Shown here one piece after another: positions 6,686-20,673 of a stretch of 20,673 bases of DNA (position 1 is its first letter; the number at the start of each line of letters is the position of its first letter). The notes under the pieces are model-generated. The model was given only the letters and a program-made list of their open reading frames with translations, was not told where the DNA came from and did not search any database. The translations under genes were made by a program, and so were the position numbers. This DNA is from a virus. Where the stretch lies: positions 1-20,673 of the IMG/VR virus record IMGVR_UViG_3300012203_000009, one strand, 5' to 3'.

Positions 6686-8401
6686 ATGGCTGATTTTGCA
6701 GGAGAGATTTTTTCTTTTCCCGGCGGACTGGACCCGACGAACCGTTCGACCAGCGTAACCGCTGGTGTGTTCGCAGCCACGATCCTTCTGGGTCTCGGGA
6801 GTTTCCCGCTGGCCGCAGACCGCGGCGTGCCAGAGCCGGCCGTCTCCATCTCCCATCAGAATCTTTCCGGGGAGCGCGTTGAAATGTTCGGGGGCCAGCT
6901 CTTCGAGAAGGTCATCGTCATTCCCCGCGTGAAGGCGCTCGGCTTCATTCTGACGGCGACGCAGTTCGCAGTCGAGGTGTGGAACACCTTCAGGGACGCG
7001 GATCAGACGCTCGGCGCCATCAACATCACAGGGACTGGAGGACTCACTCTTACCGACCCATATGGCGAGCCGCTCATCTTCGCCGCACTCGACTCGTTTA
7101 TTTATCAGGCAACCGTCCCAACGTCCGGCGCCGCGCAGATCGACCAGACCGTCGCGTTTGTTTTTGACAGTGGCATCCTCGGCGCGAACCTGCACGTCAC
7201 CGGCTCCCGCATCACGCTTTTTTCCATCGCCCCGGATTGGAACGAAGGGATGGAGGAATCGCTCGAGTACCTCACGGACGTGCTGCGCGCGTATTCCGAC
7301 AACGAGCAGCGGCGCGCCTTGCGCCAGCTCCCACGCCGTGCGATGCGCTACCGGGCGCTCACGCTGAATGCGCGGGACGCTGCAGGCATGGAGTCTCTCG
7401 TTTGGGGATGGCAGAACCAGCCGTACGGAGTTCCCTGGTGGCCGGACGCGCAGCCTCTGCTCTCTGATATCCCGGCTGGCTCGTTTGTGATTCCCGTCGA
7501 CACGGCAGACCGCCAGTTCGCCGCCGGCGGCTTGCTCACGATCTGGGTCGACGAGTACACGTTCGAAGCGCTCTCTATCGTGAGCGTGGCCGCTCATTCG
7601 GTCACGGTCTCTTCGCCTACGCAGTTCGCCTGGCTCGGGGGACCAGGGACTCGCGTCATGCCGGTCTTTCTCTGCAGGCTCCCGGCATCCGTCAGCGTCT
7701 CCAGGCATAGCAGCGAAATCGATCACATCGACGTGGACTTCATTGGCGAGGCGGGACAACCGGCTCCGGCGCCAGCGGTCTCACCGACGCAATTCAAAGG
7801 GTTCGACGTGCTCGAAATTCCACCGAACTGGGATAAGGCACCGCTAAAACGCAATTACAAGCGTTCGATGGTGACCATCGATCCGAAAGTCGGACCAATT
7901 CAGGTCATCGACAAAGGCGGGACGGCGCTCGTGGGCCAGGAATTCCCCTGGTGGCTCGACACCCACCAGAACGTCACCGCGTTCCGCGCCTTCATGCTCC
8001 GCCGGTTCGGGCAGTTCAATCCGTTTTGGATTCCGACGTGGGACCAGGACCTCGTGCTTTTCCAGGACGTGCTCTCGACCGACACGGGCATTCGTATCAA
8101 GTCGGAGTTTTACGAACGGTTTTTCTTCCCGACGCCGGCGCGCCGCTTCATCGCCTTCATTCCCATCGATGGCTCCGGGAACGTGTACGCCAAAATCACT
8201 GCCGCGCATGACAACGGCGACGGCACCGAGAACCTCTCGCTCGAGGCGCAGCCTGGGAGGAACTTCGGAAAGAGCACGACCATGATTTCGTTTCTCACAC
8301 TGGCGCGGCTCGCGTCCGACCGCGTCTCGATCAAGTGGGATAGCTCGGAGCATGCCGAGTCGATCCTCTCGCTCCAGGAACTCCCGAGGGAACTTCCATG
8401 A
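6686..8401 (+). CDS. Distal tail/minor tail protein
   Basis: 571 aa; ATG with GAGGAG upstream. It precedes the BR0599 hub gene and overlaps it by 4 bases (ATGA), the position of distal tail genes in the lambda/GTA lineage. The N-terminal part (about 1-60) has a hydrophobic, Ala-rich stretch without a clear lipobox. Residues about 180-350 contain helices (EGMEESLEYLTDVL, EQRRALRQLPRRAMRYRALT) followed by WGWQNQPYGVPWWPD. A similar segment near residues 425-460 reads DTHQNVTAFRAFMLRRFGQF then FWIPTWDQDL. These look like two related units: helix, 'R..GQ..PF/PWW.P'. This suggests an internally duplicated distal-tail fold. Family membership is not certain. Confidence 0.65.
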   Translation: MADFAGEIFSFPGGLDPTNRSTSVTAGVFAATILLGLGSFPLAADRGVPEPAVSISHQNLSGERVEMFGGQLFEKVIVIPRVKALGFILTATQFAVEVWNTFRDADQTLGAINITGTGGLTLTDPYGEPLIFAALDSFIYQATVPTSGAAQIDQTVAFVFDSGILGANLHVTGSRITLFSIAPDWNEGMEESLEYLTDVLRAYSDNEQRRALRQLPRRAMRYRALTLNARDAAGMESLVWGWQNQPYGVPWWPDAQPLLSDIPAGSFVIPVDTADRQFAAGGLLTIWVDEYTFEALSIVSVAAHSVTVSSPTQFAWLGGPGTRVMPVFLCRLPASVSVSRHSSEIDHIDVDFIGEAGQPAPAPAVSPTQFKGFDVLEIPPNWDKAPLKRNYKRSMVTIDPKVGPIQVIDKGGTALVGQEFPWWLDTHQNVTAFRAFMLRRFGQFNPFWIPTWDQDLVLFQDVLSTDTGIRIKSEFYERFFFPTPARRFIAFIPIDGSGNVYAKITAAHDNGDGTENLSLEAQPGRNFGKSTTMISFLTLARLASDRVSIKWDSSEHAESILSLQELPRELP

Positions 8402-9195
8402 GTTTTGATGCGAAGGAACAGTCGGGCTTCGCCGCGCAGCCCTACGAACTCTATCTCTTCCAGGGCACGGGAATCTCTTTCGCGCTGACGAGCGCAGAAA
8501 ATCCGATCACCTATCTGGGCCAAGTATTCGCGCCGGCGACGATCACGCGGACCGAGGTGGAGCAATCGAATGAAGTCGTGTCCGGTGAGATCAAGGTTTA
8601 CATTCCGAAGGATCACCCGCTCGCGCAGCTTCTCCTCCCATACCTGCCATCGTCGCCAATTTCGGTCACCGTCTACGGCTCTCACTACGCAGATACCGAG
8701 ACCGTGGTGCTCTTCACGGGTCTCATCGCATCGGCGCGGTTTACCGATCAGTGCGAACTGACCTGCCACTCCGCGCAGTACCTGCTTCAACGGAAAATCC
8801 CGCAGCAGCTCTACCAGGCTCCCTGTTCTAACATTTTTGGCGACGCGGGGTGCGGTGCGGACCTCTCGCAACACACGTACCACGGCACGATCACCGCGAT
8901 TGATTCGACGGGGACGGTCCTCACGATCCCGGCGTTCGCTTCGCTCCCGGATTCGCTCCGCGCGGGATATCTGAAGCATGGCGACGACTTCCGCATGGTG
9001 GTGGACCATTCCGGTTCCACGGTGAAGCTCATTTCGCCGATCCCCGGCCTGGCCACTGGCGCTGCGGTCGACGGCATCGCCGGCTGCGCTCTGGACTTTT
9101 CGACGTGCGCGCACTATGGCCGCACGATCAGCTTTCTCGGGTTCGACCTGATTCCGACGGTGAACCCGTTCAATGGCAGCGCAAGCATCGGTTAG
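8398..9195 (+). CDS. BR0599/DUF2163-family tail hub protein
   Basis: 265 aa; ATG overlaps the previous stop by 4 bases. The hub protein sits at the tail tip and links the distal tail to the receptor-binding part (gpL of lambda and the hub of the RcGTA particle are the functional models). An N-terminal beta-domain (1-110) has the PxELYxFxG...ITYLGQxFxPATITR pattern of DUF2163. The C-terminal part carries cysteines C143 and C152 (APCSNIFGDAGC) and C230 and C237 (GCALDFSTC), followed by the signature GRTISFLGFD...NPFNG. In this lineage four such cysteines can hold an iron-sulfur cluster, which is inference here. Two further cysteines (C119, C123) lie upstream. The length is typical for the family. 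Confidence 0.85.
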   Translation: MSFDAKEQSGFAAQPYELYLFQGTGISFALTSAENPITYLGQVFAPATITRTEVEQSNEVVSGEIKVYIPKDHPLAQLLLPYLPSSPISVTVYGSHYADTETVVLFTGLIASARFTDQCELTCHSAQYLLQRKIPQQLYQAPCSNIFGDAGCGADLSQHTYHGTITAIDSTGTVLTIPAFASLPDSLRAGYLKHGDDFRMVVDHSGSTVKLISPIPGLATGAAVDGIAGCALDFSTCAHYGRTISFLGFDLIPTVNPFNGSASIG

Positions 9196-12079
9196 CTCGC
9201 AGAAAGGCGGTGCAATCTTCTTCTGGCTTCTGCTCTTGCTCTTCGTGGCGACGACCGTGGTGGGAGCTCTCTTGGCTCCGCATCCGAAGGGACCGCTGCC
9301 TTCCGCGCTCGGGGACTTCTCCGTCCCCACGGCGGAAGAAGGCCGCGCGATTCCCGTGGTGTTCGGCACATGCATGATCAAGGGCGGAAACACCACCTGG
9401 TGGGGCGACCTCAAAACGAAGGCCATCAAGGTGGGCGGCGGGATTCTTTCGTTCGGCCGAACGCAGACGACGGGCTACAAGTATTACCTCGGCTGCCAGT
9501 TCATGCTTTGCCACGGTCCAGTCGACGCGCTGGTGGATATCCAGGCGGACGTGAAAAGCGTTCCGCGCACACTGACGACGATCCTGAACGGAAACGCGAC
9601 CGAGAATTACATCAAAGTCAACGCGACCGGCGACAAGCTTTTCGGCGGCACGGGTCCGGGCGGCGGCGGCGGAATCTCTGGAGAGTTCCGCTTCTATCGC
9701 GGTCTCCAAACGCAGCAGCCGGACGACTACCTGAGCGCGAAGCAGGGCCGCGTGGTGCTGGACCAGTCCGGCATCGGCTACACCTTCGCCGGCGTCGGCA
9801 ATGGCGGAATCACGGCACTCTCCGCCGGCAGCTCATCGCTCGAGGAAACATTCACGATCACCGCGGTAGGCATCGACGGGAACCCGGCTCACCCGCACTA
9901 CCAGAAGATGAAGTTCACCGTGGTGGGTTCGCTTTCCGGCCAAATCGTGAACACGGTAGACGGCGGAGATGCATGGGCGGATTTCGCGTTCTCTTCCTCG
10001 CGGATCAACTTCACGATTCAGACCGGGTCCACGCAGTACGTGAACGGCGACGTGTTCACCATCGTGACGAAGCACTCGAAGGTTGCTCCCGCCTATCGCG
10101 GCTTGTGCTACGTCGTTTTCAAGCAGCCGTATGTCGGGACGTCCAGTTATCTGAAGCCGCTCGGGTTCGCGGTGCGGCGCTGTCCCGATCCGCTCGCGCA
10201 AGGCGCCGGGGTCGCCAACATCAGCGGCGATGCGAACCCGGCACTGGCGGTCTACGAACTTCTCACGAAGGTGGATTACGGTCTCGGCATCCCCGCCGTC
10301 CGCATCGACGCCACGAGTTTCACGGCCGCGGCATCGACGCTGGCAACCGAAGGTCTCGGCATTTCCATGCAGTTCGACACGCAGGCGAGCGCCGACCAGC
10401 TCATCGGCGAAATCCTCCGGCACTGCGATGGCTTGCTCTACACCGACCCGGCCACGGGTCTCTGGACTATTGTGCTCGCGCGCGGCGGCTACGATCCGAC
10501 GACGCTCCCGCTTTTGACCGTGGACAATGTCCTCGCGACACCGGACTTCTCGCGCGGGTCCTGGAGCGAAACGACGAACCTGGTCGCGATCCGCTTCACG
10601 TCCCGTTCGAACAATTGGAACGACCGCCTGGTCAAAGCCTACGACGCAGCAAATATCGCAGTCACCGGCGAGGTCCGTCCGCAGACCATCGACTTCAAGG
10701 GAATCAGTTCGGAGGCAGCGGCGGCGCTGGTTGCGATCCGCGTCCTGAAGACGCTCACCTATCCGCTGGCGAAGATCAAGCTCGTGGTGAACCGCACCGC
10801 GTGGAAGTTCCGGCCTGGAGGTCTATTCCGGTTCACATGGGTCCCGCTCGGCATCCAGAACCAGGTTTTTCGGATCACGCGCATCGGCTACGGGGAACTC
10901 AGCGACGGGAAGATCACGATGGACGCCGTCGAGGATATCTTCGGGATCAACAGCGTGGCATTCGTCGCGCCGCCGTCCTCGGGATGGGTGAACCCCGTGG
11001 GCGCGCCGCTCGCGCCGGCGGCGCAGGAGCTAGTCGAGCTCCCCTATCACTTTAAGCAGGACGGCATCCACGCGCTCGCTCTCTGCGTTCGCGGCAACTC
11101 GCCAACGAAGAGTTTCGAGATCTGGCTCGACGAAGGAGCCGGCTACTTTTTCTCGACCGAGGTCACTGGGGTTTGTCCGTCAGGACTGCTCGCGGCGACG
11201 TACGCAGCCAGCACCCCGGCGCTCGACCCAACAGGCTTTACGCTTGCGCTCGCCGGACTCGTGGACGTCGACCTCATCGACAGCGTTCTCGCGACCGACG
11301 TGGCAAATGGGAAACTGCTCGCGCTCATCGAAGACGAAATCTTGAGCCTGCAGACCAAGACCGAGAACGCGGATGGCACTATCACCTTCACGAACGTCCT
11401 CCGCGGCGTCGCCGACACAGTTCCCGTCGACCATCCTGCCGGCGCGCGCGTCTGGTTTATTTCCGAGGGCGGCGGTCTCACGAAGGAGCCGCCGTACGGG
11501 TCCGACCTCACCGTCACCGCGAAACTGCTGCCGCAGAATTCATTCGGAGGGTTCCCGCTCTCGAGCGCGACTGCGGTATCTGTCGCGACCAATTCGCGAT
11601 TTGCGCGGCCGTATCCCCCTGCGGGTCTCATCATGCAGGCGCAGGCGTATGCCGTTCGATTCACGAAGGTGTACGGCGACCTCGTGCTGGCGTGGAAATC
11701 GCGGAACCGCGTCACGCAAACCGCGGCGGGTCCGCTCGTGGCGCAGGATGCCGCCGACATCACACCGCAACTCAACACGACGTATACGGTGAAGATCACG
11801 GTGGGCGCGACTCTGATTCGGACGGTCACTGGCATCACCGCCCAGACCTATACCTACACCGGCGCGCAGCGCGCTCTCGATGATATCGACGGCACGAAGA
11901 CGGTCACGATTCAGGTCTTTTCGAATGCTGCAGGTCCCACCCTGCTCGTGCCGGGGAGTTCGCCTCCCGCGTACATCTCGACTCTGTACGACAGCTTTTT
12001 CCCGAACGCTCTCACTCCGGTTTTGATGACGGGTTTCGGGCTGGACTTCGGGAACTTTTTTGGAGGGGTGCAAGTATGA
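9173..12079 (+). CDS. Tail tip/central fibre protein (Phage-tail_3 type)
   Basis: 968 aa; ATG overlaps the hub gene by 23 bases. It probably forms the tail tip that contacts the cell. Residues 14-36 are strongly hydrophobic (FFWLLLLLFVATTVVGALLA) and would serve as a membrane-interacting helix. Residues about 50-90 have EEGRAIPVVFGTCMIKGGN, a usual entry motif of this family. A beta-module (206-298) is shared with the 392-aa structural protein. Residues about 350-595 hold the Phage-tail_3 core: TPDFSRGSWSETTNLVAIRF, PQTIDFKGISS, YPLAKIKLVVNRTAWKFRPG and ITMDAVEDIF. The C-terminal third is a variable beta-rich region, likely receptor-facing. No peptidase gene separates it from the hub, unlike many lambda-like tails. 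Confidence 0.8.
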   Translation: MAAQASVSSQKGGAIFFWLLLLLFVATTVVGALLAPHPKGPLPSALGDFSVPTAEEGRAIPVVFGTCMIKGGNTTWWGDLKTKAIKVGGGILSFGRTQTTGYKYYLGCQFMLCHGPVDALVDIQADVKSVPRTLTTILNGNATENYIKVNATGDKLFGGTGPGGGGGISGEFRFYRGLQTQQPDDYLSAKQGRVVLDQSGIGYTFAGVGNGGITALSAGSSSLEETFTITAVGIDGNPAHPHYQKMKFTVVGSLSGQIVNTVDGGDAWADFAFSSSRINFTIQTGSTQYVNGDVFTIVTKHSKVAPAYRGLCYVVFKQPYVGTSSYLKPLGFAVRRCPDPLAQGAGVANISGDANPALAVYELLTKVDYGLGIPAVRIDATSFTAAASTLATEGLGISMQFDTQASADQLIGEILRHCDGLLYTDPATGLWTIVLARGGYDPTTLPLLTVDNVLATPDFSRGSWSETTNLVAIRFTSRSNNWNDRLVKAYDAANIAVTGEVRPQTIDFKGISSEAAAALVAIRVLKTLTYPLAKIKLVVNRTAWKFRPGGLFRFTWVPLGIQNQVFRITRIGYGELSDGKITMDAVEDIFGINSVAFVAPPSSGWVNPVGAPLAPAAQELVELPYHFKQDGIHALALCVRGNSPTKSFEIWLDEGAGYFFSTEVTGVCPSGLLAATYAASTPALDPTGFTLALAGLVDVDLIDSVLATDVANGKLLALIEDEILSLQTKTENADGTITFTNVLRGVADTVPVDHPAGARVWFISEGGGLTKEPPYGSDLTVTAKLLPQNSFGGFPLSSATAVSVATNSRFARPYPPAGLIMQAQAYAVRFTKVYGDLVLAWKSRNRVTQTAAGPLVAQDAADITPQLNTTYTVKITVGATLIRTVTGITAQTYTYTGAQRALDDIDGTKTVTIQVFSNAAGPTLLVPGSSPPAYISTLYDSFFPNALTPVLMTGFGLDFGNFFGGVQV
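9788..10066 (+). other. Shared beta-rich module, copy 2
   Basis: Codes for residues about 206-298 of the 968-aa tip protein: GNGGITALSAGSSS, ETFTITAV, FTVVGSLSG, AFSSSRINFTIQTG and YVNGDVFTIV. The order and spacing match the module at 4592-4810. This copy is about 20 residues longer because of extra residues before FTVVGS and after the SG loop. Confidence 0.55.
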
Positions 12080-16002: not shown

Positions 16003-16008
16003 TACAAT
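16003..16008 (+). promoter_or_regulatory. Candidate -10 element TACAAT before the TetR-like gene
   Basis: TACAAT matches the sigma70 -10 consensus at five of six bases and ends 11 bases before ATG 16020. No well-spaced -35 is visible: CTGACA at 15984-15989 is only 13 bases away. There is no clear ribosome binding site before the ATG. A leaderless or near-leaderless transcript is possible. Confidence 0.3.
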
Positions 16009-16019
16009 TGGCTCACCTC

Positions 16020-16349
16020 ATGGCCAGCAAAATCCGCGAACGCATCGTCTCCAACGCCGTACGCTGTTTCGCCGCGCACGGTTATTCCGGTTGTTCCACA
16101 AAAGCAATTGCACAGCGCGCGAACGTCACCGAGGGTTCACTATTCCGGCTGTGCTGCTCCAAAGAGAAACTATTCACCGAGGCTTTGTCGCTGGCGCTCG
16201 CATCTAAAAAGAGCCGCACCACGTACCGCCGTCTCGTGGCCTTCGCGCTCCTCGAGCAGAAGGGTCTGAACGACGCCAACGTGAAAGCTCTCCGCCACTT
16301 CTCCGCAAGCTGTCCGCTCATCCGGGAACTCCGCTCGATCTGTAAGTGA
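16020..16349 (+). CDS. TetR-type HTH-only regulator
   Basis: 109 aa from ATG 16020. An upstream in-frame ATG at 15897 would lie in the spanin gene and adds Arg-rich shadow sequence, so it is not used. Residues about 5-55 match the TetR_N helix-turn-helix: RIVSNAVRCFAAHGYSG, then STKAIAQRANVTEGSLF and SKEKLFTEAL. Canonical TetR proteins are about 200 aa with a C-terminal ligand/dimer domain. Here only about 50 basic residues follow, so this is a DNA-binding module without the usual sensor. The FRLCCSKEKLF segment replaces the family's usual Y-x-x-F-x-S-K-x-x-L. It precedes two inverted repeats and the recombinase promoter, so it may repress or activate recombination. The target is inferred. 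Confidence 0.65.
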   Translation: MASKIRERIVSNAVRCFAAHGYSGCSTKAIAQRANVTEGSLFRLCCSKEKLFTEALSLALASKKSRTTYRRLVAFALLEQKGLNDANVKALRHFSASCPLIRELRSICK

Positions 16350-16360
16350 CAAATTATTTA

Positions 16361-16387
16361 CAATCTTGGAATCCCGCGCCAAGATTG
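16361..16387. promoter_or_regulatory. Perfect 9-bp inverted repeat, operator or hairpin
   Basis: CAATCTTGG (16361-16369), a 9-base spacer, and CCAAGATTG (16379-16387) are exact reverse complements. The repeat begins 11 bases after the TetR-like stop. It could bind a dimeric HTH protein. Alternatively it could form an RNA hairpin. No T-run follows on the + strand, whereas on the minus strand the stem is followed by an A/T-rich stretch. Confidence 0.55.
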
Positions 16388-16390
16388 GCG
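16377..16390. promoter_or_regulatory. Overlapping compact palindrome CGCCAA-GA-TTGGCG
   Basis: Arms of 6 bases (16377-16382 and 16385-16390) are exact reverse complements around GA. It shares sequence with the right arm of the 16361-16387 repeat, so in RNA the two structures would compete, although a 2-base loop would first have to open. It could be a second half-site arrangement in the operator. Confidence 0.35.
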
Positions 16391-16408
16391 TCGTAGTAAA
16401 CGCTACGA
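16391..16408. promoter_or_regulatory. Perfect 6-bp inverted repeat TCGTAG-N6-CTACGA
   Basis: TCGTAG (16391-16396) and CTACGA (16403-16408) are exact reverse complements with a 6-base centre. It is 3 bases from the end of the first repeat and 20 bases upstream of the candidate -35, a plausible position for a regulator binding site. Confidence 0.4.
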
Positions 16409-16428
16409 AAAATAACCGTACACTTCTG

Positions 16429-16458
16429 TTGACATTGCATCCTGAGTAAGAGTAAAGT
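16429..16458 (+). promoter_or_regulatory. Candidate sigma70 promoter for the recombinase operon
   Basis: TTGACA (16429-16434) is a perfect -35. TAAAGT (16453-16458) matches the -10 consensus at four of six bases with an 18-base spacer. A tandem GAGTAAGAGTAA overlaps the -10 region. The promoter would serve the 58-aa gene at 16541 and the serine recombinase at 16701. It lies in the 191-bp stretch between 16350 and 16540, which otherwise holds only the inverted repeats. Confidence 0.5.
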
Positions 16459-16540: not shown

Positions 16541-16717
16541 GTGCCGGACCCAGGGTTAGTGGATGCGCTGTTCGAAGTGGGAAAGCAACGCCAGCAGATA
16601 CTGCAAAACCTCCGAAGTGCCTACGAGAAGAAAGACCTCGAAGCCGTTCTCGTTCACGTCGCGGAGCTAGTGGGACTCGAAGAGAGTCTGGAAAGGCCGC
16701 GTGAAAAAAGTCATTGA
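16541..16717 (+). CDS. Small protein (58 aa) before the serine recombinase
   Basis: GTG start (16541) with AGGAAGGA at 16523-16530; stop TGA 16715-16717, overlapping the recombinase start by 17 bases. The product is a normal-looking helical protein: VDALFEVGKQRQQILQNLRS, then AYEKKDLEAVLVHVAELVGL and a charged end. It is short and easily missed. A competing frame (16480-16704) gives an Arg/Ser-rich shadow with no start signal of comparable quality. No domain was recognised. Its coupling to the recombinase suggests a small partner, for example a directionality or stability factor, but there is no direct evidence. Confidence 0.6.
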   Translation: MPDPGLVDALFEVGKQRQQILQNLRSAYEKKDLEAVLVHVAELVGLEESLERPREKSH

Positions 16718-18275
16718 ACTCATCCGGGTTTCGACGCAGGCGCAGGCAGGCGACGACCGCGCAAGCATCCCGGCGCAGAAAACGGTGAACCGCAGGACCG
16801 CTGACACCTACGGTTTGACGATCACCAAATCCATCGAGATCACGGACGTCTCGGGGACTGCGGTGCTCCGCGCTCCCGAGATGCAGGAACTGCTCCGGCT
16901 CATCGAGTCGCCGGACATCGCCGGCGTGGTGGTGCGGGAATTCTCCCGCGTCATGCGTCCTGATAACTTCGGCGACTACGTGCTCTTTCAAGTGTTCCAG
17001 GACACCGGCACTTTGTTGTATCTTCCAGATGGTCCTCTCGATCTCAACAGCAAAACAGGAAAACTCGTGGCGGGACTCCGGGCCATCATCGCGGGGAATG
17101 AACTTTCGGAAATCCGGGAGCGCGTCTGGTCCGCGAAGGAAGAGATGCGTCGCGCCGGCAAGCACACCCAGAGCCACATCTGCCTGCCATTCGGCGTGGG
17201 TTACTCGAAGGAAGAGGGATTCTTCTATAAACCCGAAGCCGAACATGTCCGCGAGGCTTTCCGCCGGCTGCTCTCCGGCGAGACCAGTTACACTGAACTC
17301 GCGAAACCGCTCGGGTTCACCCCGCAGGGCATGCACACGATTTTCACCAATCCGATCTACAACGGATGGCGCGTCTACGATAAAAAGCGGGACATGGCGT
17401 CGAAGGCTCGCCGCTACTGTGCCGGCGGACGCCAGGGTGACCGTCCGAAGATTAGCCGCGATCCAGACGAAGTCATTCGCGTCAAGGTGATCTCCTCTCC
17501 GCTCGTGGGAGATGCGGAGTTCCGGCGCGCCCAGGAACTGGTCGCTCGGAAGACGCTCCGCCATTGGAAGCACCGCGCGGACACGAAGCACCGCTTCACC
17601 TATAGCGGGTTCCTGCTCTGTGCCGAGTGCGAGTCTCCGGTCTATGGCAAGGACGCGAGCGGCTTCTACTATGCCTGCCGGCGGCGCCTCTCGAAACTCG
17701 CGAGCGGGAAGTGTCCGACCAACTACATGCGCCAGGAACGGCTGGAGTCGAAGCTCGATGGGATTCTCGCCGAGCGGCTCACCGACCGGGACTTCATCAC
17801 TGAATTACTCAGTGACTTCCACGCCAACTCCGACGCGGCGGCGTCGCGCGGTAGAATCGCCAGGCTCGAACTGGAGATGAAGAAGCTTCGCGAAAAGCGA
17901 GAGCGTGTGCTCGATATTTATTTGGAGGGCATTCTTTCACGCGCGGATCGGGACCAGCGGCTCGGCGAGGTCGACGCGCGAATCCAGATGACGGAGGAGA
18001 TGCTGCTCCGAGAAGTGCCAGCTCCGACGGTGTCGGTGCGCTCGCTGATGACGGCGTTCGCTCCGCTCTTCGATTGGCAGTTTATGAACCGGGAGAGCAA
18101 GAGGAGGATTCTGTCGGTGACCATCCCCGAGATTCGCGTATCGAACTACCAGGTACGCGGCATCTCGGTGACGTCGCCGACTTTTTTTTGTGGCGAAGAG
18201 GTAACCCACTTCCGTGCGGGTTCCCTAATAGCTACGAGAAGTCCTGAACGCCTCTTCATCCCCCTAAACCTATGA
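16701..18275 (+). CDS. Large serine recombinase (phage integrase/resolvase family)
   Basis: 524 aa from GTG 16701 with GGAAAGG just upstream. The catalytic domain (about 1-140) starts KKVIELIRVSTQ, placing the nucleophile at Ser11 with Arg9. A second conserved cluster reads REFSRVMRP (Arg83, Arg86), and ELSEIRERVWSAKEEM begins the long helix. The recombinase domain (about 155-285) includes FTNPIYNGWRVY. A zinc ribbon follows with C307, C310, C326 and C338. A coiled coil occupies about 380-435, the usual subunit-contact helices of large serine integrases. The C-terminus ends GEEVTHFRAGSLI. It could integrate or excise the element or mobilise a nested one. A run of eight T bases lies near the 3' end. 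Confidence 0.88.
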   Translation: MKKVIELIRVSTQAQAGDDRASIPAQKTVNRRTADTYGLTITKSIEITDVSGTAVLRAPEMQELLRLIESPDIAGVVVREFSRVMRPDNFGDYVLFQVFQDTGTLLYLPDGPLDLNSKTGKLVAGLRAIIAGNELSEIRERVWSAKEEMRRAGKHTQSHICLPFGVGYSKEEGFFYKPEAEHVREAFRRLLSGETSYTELAKPLGFTPQGMHTIFTNPIYNGWRVYDKKRDMASKARRYCAGGRQGDRPKISRDPDEVIRVKVISSPLVGDAEFRRAQELVARKTLRHWKHRADTKHRFTYSGFLLCAECESPVYGKDASGFYYACRRRLSKLASGKCPTNYMRQERLESKLDGILAERLTDRDFITELLSDFHANSDAAASRGRIARLELEMKKLREKRERVLDIYLEGILSRADRDQRLGEVDARIQMTEEMLLREVPAPTVSVRSLMTAFAPLFDWQFMNRESKRRILSVTIPEIRVSNYQVRGISVTSPTFFCGEEVTHFRAGSLIATRSPERLFIPLNL

Positions 18276-19338: not shown

Positions 19339-20085
19339 ATGAGCACTGATGCGGATGCTATCCAGAAAATTCTCACGCTCGCGCCGCCGAACATCCACAA
19401 GATTGGCGACCTCGAGTTCACCGACAAGAAACTGGACCTGATTTACCCGCCGTCGCCCAAGGCGGTCGAATGCTCGACGCTGCAGGGTCTGGTGGACCTG
19501 TTCATGGGCGACCTAGACAACGTGACCCCGGACAAAGTCCTCGTTCACATCACTTCGCCGACGTGCGTCGAACTCATCAGCAAGGATGCCGATGACCACG
19601 GCCGGCGGCGCGTCTGGGTGCAAGCGGAATATCCCGGCTGCGAGTCGTTCAAGTTCGGCGTCTGGCACAACCCGGAGAGTTTCCTCATCTCTGCTCAACA
19701 GGGATTTCAGCGGGTGAAGATCGAGAAGGACGACGGCACGTTCGCTCCCGATCTTGACTATGTGCTGAAGGTCGCTTCGAACATCACCGCAGAAAATGCG
19801 ACCAGCCACGAGGACGACGGATTCGCACAGCGGGTAGCGGTGAAGCAGGGCATCGCTCTCAAGGCCGAAACGGTCCTGAAACCTACGGTGAACCTCGCGC
19901 CATACCGCACCTTCGCGGAAATCGACCAGGTGCTCTCGCAGTTTGTTTTCCGCGCGCGCATCGGCGGTGAATCGATCCAGCTCGCTCTATTCGAAGGCGA
20001 CGGCGGTCGCTGGAAACTCGGGGCGGTCGCTGCGATCAAGACATGGCTCGAGCCCAATTTCGGGGACGTGCCTGTCATCAGCTAA
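19339..20085 (+). CDS. DUF2303 (YfdQ-like) phage protein
   Basis: 248 aa; ATG with AGGAGG at 19323-19328. The C-terminal half carries the DUF2303 signature: LKPTVNLAPYRTFAEIDQ (180-197), SQFVFRARIGG (200-210), and LALFEGDGGRWKLGAVAAIKTWL (215-237). The N-terminal region (about 15-110) contains FTDKKLDLIYPPSPKAVECS and VHITSPTCVELI. The family is common in prophages of Gram-negative bacteria (YfdQ in an E. coli prophage) and its biochemical role is not known. It is the gene before the integrase and its stop overlaps the integrase ATG by one base, so expression is linked. There are no membrane segments or catalytic motifs to suggest a reaction. Confidence 0.8.
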   Translation: MSTDADAIQKILTLAPPNIHKIGDLEFTDKKLDLIYPPSPKAVECSTLQGLVDLFMGDLDNVTPDKVLVHITSPTCVELISKDADDHGRRRVWVQAEYPGCESFKFGVWHNPESFLISAQQGFQRVKIEKDDGTFAPDLDYVLKVASNITAENATSHEDDGFAQRVAVKQGIALKAETVLKPTVNLAPYRTFAEIDQVLSQFVFRARIGGESIQLALFEGDGGRWKLGAVAAIKTWLEPNFGDVPVIS

Positions 20086-20673
20086 TGGAGAAGGTCCCCG
20101 GCATCATCGAGCGCGGCGGGGTCAAGGGCATTTGGTGGATTTCATTCCTTGACCAGGACGGAGTCCGCCACAAGGAAAAAATCGGCATGCACGACGCCGC
20201 GCTCGAAATGCTCCGCATCAGGCGTGCCGAGGTCAAGAGTGGGAGGTACGTCCCAAAGCGTGAGGAGAGAGTGTGGACATTCAGACGATTGGCCGACGAT
20301 GCGATCAAGAAAAAGGCGATCCGTCTGGCGCCGCTCACCATCGCGACGGACAAGATCCGTCTAGGGCAGCTCTACAAGCGCATCGGCGACCTCCGGTACG
20401 ACCGTTTCACCCCGGAGAGAATCGATGCCGTCCTGGGCAACCTCAAGGCATCGGGTCTGAAGGATTCGACCTGCAATCGCTACCGTTCGTTCATCTCGAG
20501 CGTTTTCACTCACGCGGTCTCGACGGGGCGCATGGCCACGAATCCCTGCGCGAAGGTGAAGCGGTTCCCCGAAAGAGCCGGTCGCACGTTGTTCCTATCG
20601 GAGGAGGACGAGAAGAAGCTGAAGCTCGAATTGACGGAGGAGCAGGAGGCGGAGGTGCTCCTCGCGATGCACA
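20085..20673 (+). CDS. int: Phage tyrosine integrase, N-terminal part (cut by window end)
   Basis: ATG 20085 overlaps the DUF2303 TAA by one base (TAATG). 196 codons are visible with no stop. The N-terminal arm-binding domain (about 1-55) reads GIWWISFLDQDGVRHKEKIG then AALEMLRIRRAEVKSGRYVP, the usual arm domain of phage integrases. The core-binding domain (about 65-165) has STCNRYRSFISSVFTHAV and the closing NPCAKVKRFPERAGRTLFLS. The catalytic domain with the Arg-His-Arg-Tyr set would begin after about residue 170 and lies outside the window. It probably integrates the element at a host site. It is the second recombinase in the window, of the other family. No attP core is identifiable. Confidence 0.85.
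   Translation, partial: MEKVPGIIERGGVKGIWWISFLDQDGVRHKEKIGMHDAALEMLRIRRAEVKSGRYVPKREERVWTFRRLADDAIKKKAIRLAPLTIATDKIRLGQLYKRIGDLRYDRFTPERIDAVLGNLKASGLKDSTCNRYRSFISSVFTHAVSTGRMATNPCAKVKRFPERAGRTLFLSEEDEKKLKLELTEEQEAEVLLAMH

Follow-up and report, generated by a model that had tools for sequence, protein, structure and literature searches.

A short TetR-type protein and a candidate operator conserved together upstream of a serine recombinase operon in a group of phages

Regulators of the TetR/AcrR family, about 200 aa long and built of nine or more helices, carry a C-terminal domain for ligand binding and dimerisation, and a typical member reads a palindrome as a homodimer, its nine-helix protomers being joined by a C-terminal four-helix bundle (PMC11667970). 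The phage protein described here, mini-TetR, resembles them in its HTH head (PF00440), in a palindromic candidate operator near a promoter and in a gene that adjoins an operon, but it is only 109 aa long and is without the C-terminal ligand and dimerisation domain. Two other kinds of phage system come close. Apl of phage 186, a dual excisionase and regulator that works with a tyrosine integrase, is likewise a small phage HTH protein at a recombinase/promoter region. PMC7498355 describes Apl as acting on direct repeats, whereas mini-TetR has a TetR-type HTH and an inverted repeat. The serine integrase/RDF pairs of phiC31 (gp3) and Bxb1 (gp47) share with our locus a large serine recombinase and a small co-encoded protein, here a 58-aa ORF. 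However, the RDFs given in Table 2 of PMC4111918 are about 240-255 aa long, and the phage studied here also has a tyrosine integrase.

The window, i.e. the whole stretch of 20,673 bases that was analysed (IMGVR_UViG_3300012203_000009), is a virus (phage) fragment. Tail, lysozyme, holin and spanin-like genes (the first three labels being read off the ORF translations, without family matches) come first, and after them the TetR-like gene, the 58-aa ORF and the large serine recombinase. Further 3' lie an HTH (Cro/CI-like) protein kept across the phage group (18590-18910, + strand), phrog_997 and phrog_1029 proteins and the tyrosine integrase (20043-20672, + strand; Phage_int_M, E 7.7e-9; phrog_1 integrase, E 3.3e-19), cut at the record end and complete in the related contig L029. 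One phage thus harbours both a large serine recombinase (16701-18275) and a tyrosine integrase. Relatives of the serine recombinase in bacterial genomes come mostly from Acidobacteriota assemblies (L007, Terriglobia; L008, Acidobacteriales; L009 and L011, Granulicella; L010, labelled Bacillota), and the host of the window phage is likely to be an acidobacterial soil bacterium.

A sequence-only reading of this DNA had pointed to a 109-aa TetR_N protein, two inverted repeats, a TTGACA at position 16429 and a serine recombinase operon, all of which we find where it placed them. The short protein (16020-16349, + strand) comprises HTH helices 1-3, helix 4 and a helical tail. Its sole domain is TetR_N (PF00440; E 1.4e-12, residues 9-54), at 47.6 bits against a cut-off of 24. 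The AlphaFold2 model, a monomer model that carries no information on dimerisation, has seven helices (mean pLDDT 90.8, pTM 0.82); TetR chains come first in a structure search with it, although the query-normalised TM-score of solved TetR chains is only about 0.5. With 109 aa and seven helices the protein lacks the C-terminal ligand-binding/dimerisation domain of the family, and a search 3' of the short gene found no C-terminal TetR homology hidden there. A putative tetR -10 (TACAAT, 16003-16008, + strand), read from the sequence, lies 11 bp 5' of the ATG, with no clear -35; it has counterparts in L016 (TAGAAT, 13 bp before the ATG) and L029 (TACAAT, 10 bp before it). If this element is used, the tetR mRNA is possibly near-leaderless.

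Relatives of the locus were found by recombinase, lysozyme and protein-pattern scans of 2.9 million viral contigs. Three of them, L016 (the same contig as L003), L017 and L029, encode in the same gene order a short TetR of 110, 109 and 109 aa, respectively, each 58-62% identical to the window copy. The short-form set therefore consists of four genomes, with L017 and L029 being short fragments. The short length, 109-110 aa in four diverged phages, is genuine and not a simple truncation of the window copy, the outcome that the sequence-only reading had named as a refutation. That a full-length gene was recently cut short or frameshifted is ruled out by the equal length in four phages and by the absence of downstream C-terminal homology. 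It had also been asked whether the same length recurs beside serine recombinases: this holds for three of the four phages, where the gene lies directly before the recombinase operon, but not for L029, which has the regulator and no recombinase. Among the short orthologues, dN/dS over the whole protein is about 0.15-0.28, with weaker constraint on the tail than on the head (0.15-0.56, still below 1, with dS near saturation). This pattern suggests that the short TetR is maintained.

The more distant phages L020 and L021 have in the syntenic place full-length TetR proteins of 207 and 204 aa, whose C-terminal domains give weak TetR_C_7/TetR_C_11 matches, under the curated cut-off. Some 100 residues, the dimerisation helices among them, have thus gone from the short form. 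That it descends from a full-length TetR is borne out, besides synteny, by BLASTP, in which the short L029 protein aligns with that of L020 (2e-19) across the deletion, the alignment breaking off after helix 4 for about 27-29 residues and restarting at R-I-A-x-F-A-x-L-E-R, and by profile scores: L020 and L021 reach 4.8e-24 and 1.1e-19, the top-scoring bacterial TetR 7.3e-9 (14 genomes/records searched). A profile of the short tail ranks the C-terminal part of L020 first and that of L021 third (1,002 sequences, 1,000 of them shuffled). The gapped alignment and the tail ranking indicate that the short form is without helix 5 and without what follows from about helix 7 onward; its last two helices are new or rebuilt, and a model of the full-length TetR displays helices that are absent from it. 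The tetR gene is missing from several relatives. In the recombinase tree, L017 groups with L007, which has no TetR, and the window with a clade that has none either (L013/L014/L015/L018), L016 branching outside these two; the short TetR thus occurs to either side of the deepest division within its clade. The simplest account of this distribution would be one ancestral short TetR followed by two losses.

Outside these loci, searches found no other short TetR of the window kind. None of the 60 PDB chains that the short-form profile listed is shorter than 170 aa, and in 40 Acidobacteriota genomes the TetR_N frames listed have about 190 codons or more, bar one 120-codon frame near a contig end. 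A profile search found nothing at E 1e-12 in 396 Acidobacteriota genomes, a set that contains no positive control; the plasmid search found no short TetR of this kind, and the open literature searched had nothing on a TetR devoid of its ligand domain or on a phage TetR next to a serine recombinase. Matches in phage records were distant (28-48% identity, mostly in the HTH part), and scanning all viral contigs for T-E-G-S-L-F-R-x-[CF] returned only the known loci and L052, a fragment resembling the full-length type. Many short GenBank records named 'Listeria phage LM 4-11-1 / 4-14-1' match the TetR HTH and look like host DNA fragments.

The operon downstream of tetR has a sigma-70-like promoter (16429-16458, + strand) with TTGACA, an 18-bp spacer and TAAAGT (16453-16458), matching at 10 of 12 positions; a TTGAC[A/T] -35 is retained in relatives with and without TetR. 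The 58-aa ORF (16541-16717, + strand) overlaps the start of the recombinase and accompanies it, being detected by tblastn in L007, L010, L011 and L013-L019. It matches no family in domain-family and phrog searches and is a candidate accessory or directionality protein. Its presence with this recombinase type also in the Bacillota-labelled L010 and in L011 points to a portable two-gene unit. The recombinase itself (16701-18275, + strand; 524 aa) bears an RVST active-site motif and the Resolvase, Recombinase and Zn_ribbon_recom domains of large serine recombinases, and matches phrog_95 (integrase). In L018 the recombinase frame, as cut here (8001-9566), holds a stop codon. In L029 an in-frame deletion (9452-9604) has fused the N-terminal part of the 58-aa ORF to the last recombinase codons (SDRIFIPLNL), and TetR, site and promoter remain.

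Two inverted repeats separate tetR from this promoter. The first (16361-16387) is perfect, with 9-bp arms (16361-16369 and 16379-16387) and a 9-bp spacer; the second (16391-16408), which we propose as the operator of the short TetR, reads TCGTAG-N6-CTACGA (arms 16391-16396 and 16403-16408) and lies 20 bp 5' of the recombinase -35. The whole window holds four repeats of at least 9 bp with a spacer of at most 20, against 0-8 in resampled sequence; a repeat of at least 9 bp within the tetR-recombinase intergenic stretch has a P of about 0.01, and a 6-bp repeat is expected there in 37% of resamples, so that neither is compelling on its own. Both had been taken as possible binding sites in the sequence-only reading, which named a lack of conservation as refuting; this applies to the first repeat alone. 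Only the second recurs with TetR; the arms of the first are broken in L029 and it has no counterpart in L016 or L017. The 16361-16387 repeat was thus dropped as an operator and is probably incidental. An Rfam search returned nothing.

The consensus TCGKAG-N6-CTMCGA occurs once each in the window (16391), L016 (7688) and L029 (9314), always 20 bp before the -35, and is absent from every other distinct locus compared; as it was read from the window and L016, only L029, L017 and L007 are semi-independent tests. L017 matches 10 of the 12 consensus positions, with a poor left half-site, 19 bp before its -35. When the loci are anchored on the -35, pairwise identity is 83% in the arms, 36% in the N6 core and 34% in the remaining upstream columns, and none of 2000 column shuffles reaches the observed palindromy. 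Between the window and L016 both arms change together, from T-A to G-C. The site lies at a variable distance from the tetR stop, as does the next ORF from the promoter; the spacing between site and -35 is constant at 20, 20, 20 and 19 bp. The TetR-less L007, sister of L017, has a decayed site (9/12, P 0.007) at the same 19-bp spacing. In L013, L014, L015 and L018, which have the recombinase and no TetR, the score is 4-5 out of 12, the chance level, while L029 has lost the recombinase and retains TetR with a full-consensus site. The palindrome thus follows TetR, not the recombinase. Gene and site are neighbours, and a joint loss may occur whatever their relation. The full site is found once in the window: no second copy that could serve autoregulation was detected at the tetR promoter, the other matches in the window having two mismatches, at chance level. 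The full-length TetR genes of L020 and L021 also precede the 58-aa ORF/serine recombinase operon and have a repeat of their own that ends 20-21 bp before the -35; unlike mini-TetR, they keep the C-terminal domain, and the operator sequence differs (TTCGG...CCGAA-like, TTCGGTTCTGCTACYAAARCAG(C)CGAA). The TetR-less L013, L014, L015 and L018 have a conserved motif of their own in common (GRGTNACT-like), placed 65-75 bp above the recombinase -35, where a different regulator may bind.

Serine integrases often adjoin attP, and the recombinase starts about 290 bp downstream of the palindrome. The palindrome could thus belong to the recombinase, as an attachment or crossover site or as an operator for the recombinase or the 58-aa protein, with TetR a bystander. 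We consider this improbable: the recombinase-less L029 has its full-consensus site beside TetR, and four TetR-less relatives with recombinases about 70% identical and the same promoter are without the palindrome, which together disfavour a recombinase site. That the palindrome works as RNA, a hairpin or terminator ending the tetR transcript, is the least probable of the readings considered here. Its position 42-59 bp past the tetR stop codon, a possible stem of 6-8 bp and the paired changes between the window and L016 would suit such a role, but the DNA that follows is A-rich and not T-rich, a terminator scan gives no match there, L029 and L017 pair imperfectly yet keep the half-site letters, as expected for a protein site, and the constant distance is to the -35, not to the stop codon. 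Hardly more probable is that the short gene is decaying and without function, a leftover of a full-length TetR. It does lack any domain of the kind that dimerises known TetR proteins and is missing in several relatives; against decay speak its equal length in four phages at 58-62% identity, a dN/dS well below 1, a confident fold over all 109 aa and the matching candidate operator.

We therefore favour, as the probable explanation, that mini-TetR is the functional heir of the full-length phage TetR, binds 16391-16408 and adjusts the 58-aa ORF/recombinase operon without a ligand. Of the full-length ancestor, the HTH head, helix 4 and a single ligand-domain helix (R-L-x-x-F-A-L-L-E) would survive in mini-TetR; helix 5, the pocket for the ligand and dimerisation helices 8-9 would be missing. 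With the palindrome still there but no bundle, two protomers need another way to meet; we infer that they pair on the site, be it via the new tail, by DNA-induced cooperativity or with a partner protein. Bound there, mini-TetR would tune transcription of the recombinase operon with no small-molecule signal, and control by a pocketless TetR would be set by the amount of protein.

The sign of the regulation we can only suggest. The centre of 16391-16408 would lie about 65 bp upstream of the presumed transcription start of the operon, a distance from which activators can contact the RNA polymerase alpha subunit. Because of this upstream position and the constant 19-20-bp distance to the -35, we lean, if only just, towards activation by polymerase contact over promoter blocking. 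The -10 hexamers of the TetR-less relatives are no better than those of the TetR-bearing ones, which counts against strict dependence on an activator. Repression, by oligomerisation towards the -35 or by keeping another activator off, is a variant of the same operator model, so that the chance we give it, as a possible but doubtful reading, overlaps with our confidence in that model. Most TetR proteins repress, and the perfect -35, retained in TetR-less relatives, could work unaided; the site, in turn, lies outside the promoter, 20 bp above the -35, at constant spacing. As to what the operon is regulated for, the evidence does not reach as far as the proposal that the locus controls integration or excision as a new type of recombination switch, even though the short regulator and one palindrome proved to be conserved. 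Four relatives have the recombinase and no regulator, and L029 the regulator and no recombinase. The tyrosine integrase in the same phage implies that the serine enzyme may not be the phage integrase, and a recombination switch is for this reason a possibility and not a result.

In the very large TetR family, recognition of a palindrome is believed to require the C-terminal dimerisation domain that also senses the ligand. A conserved natural TetR without this domain, together with its full-length orthologues and the candidate operators of both, would offer a direct test of how small a TetR can be and still read a palindrome. We put forward tentatively, and with less than even confidence, that one phage lineage has evolved a stable, ligand-blind mini-TetR that pairs without a dimerisation domain and serves as a dedicated switch of the recombinase operon. 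If true, it would be an example of a phage turning a sensor into a sensor-free recombinase regulator.
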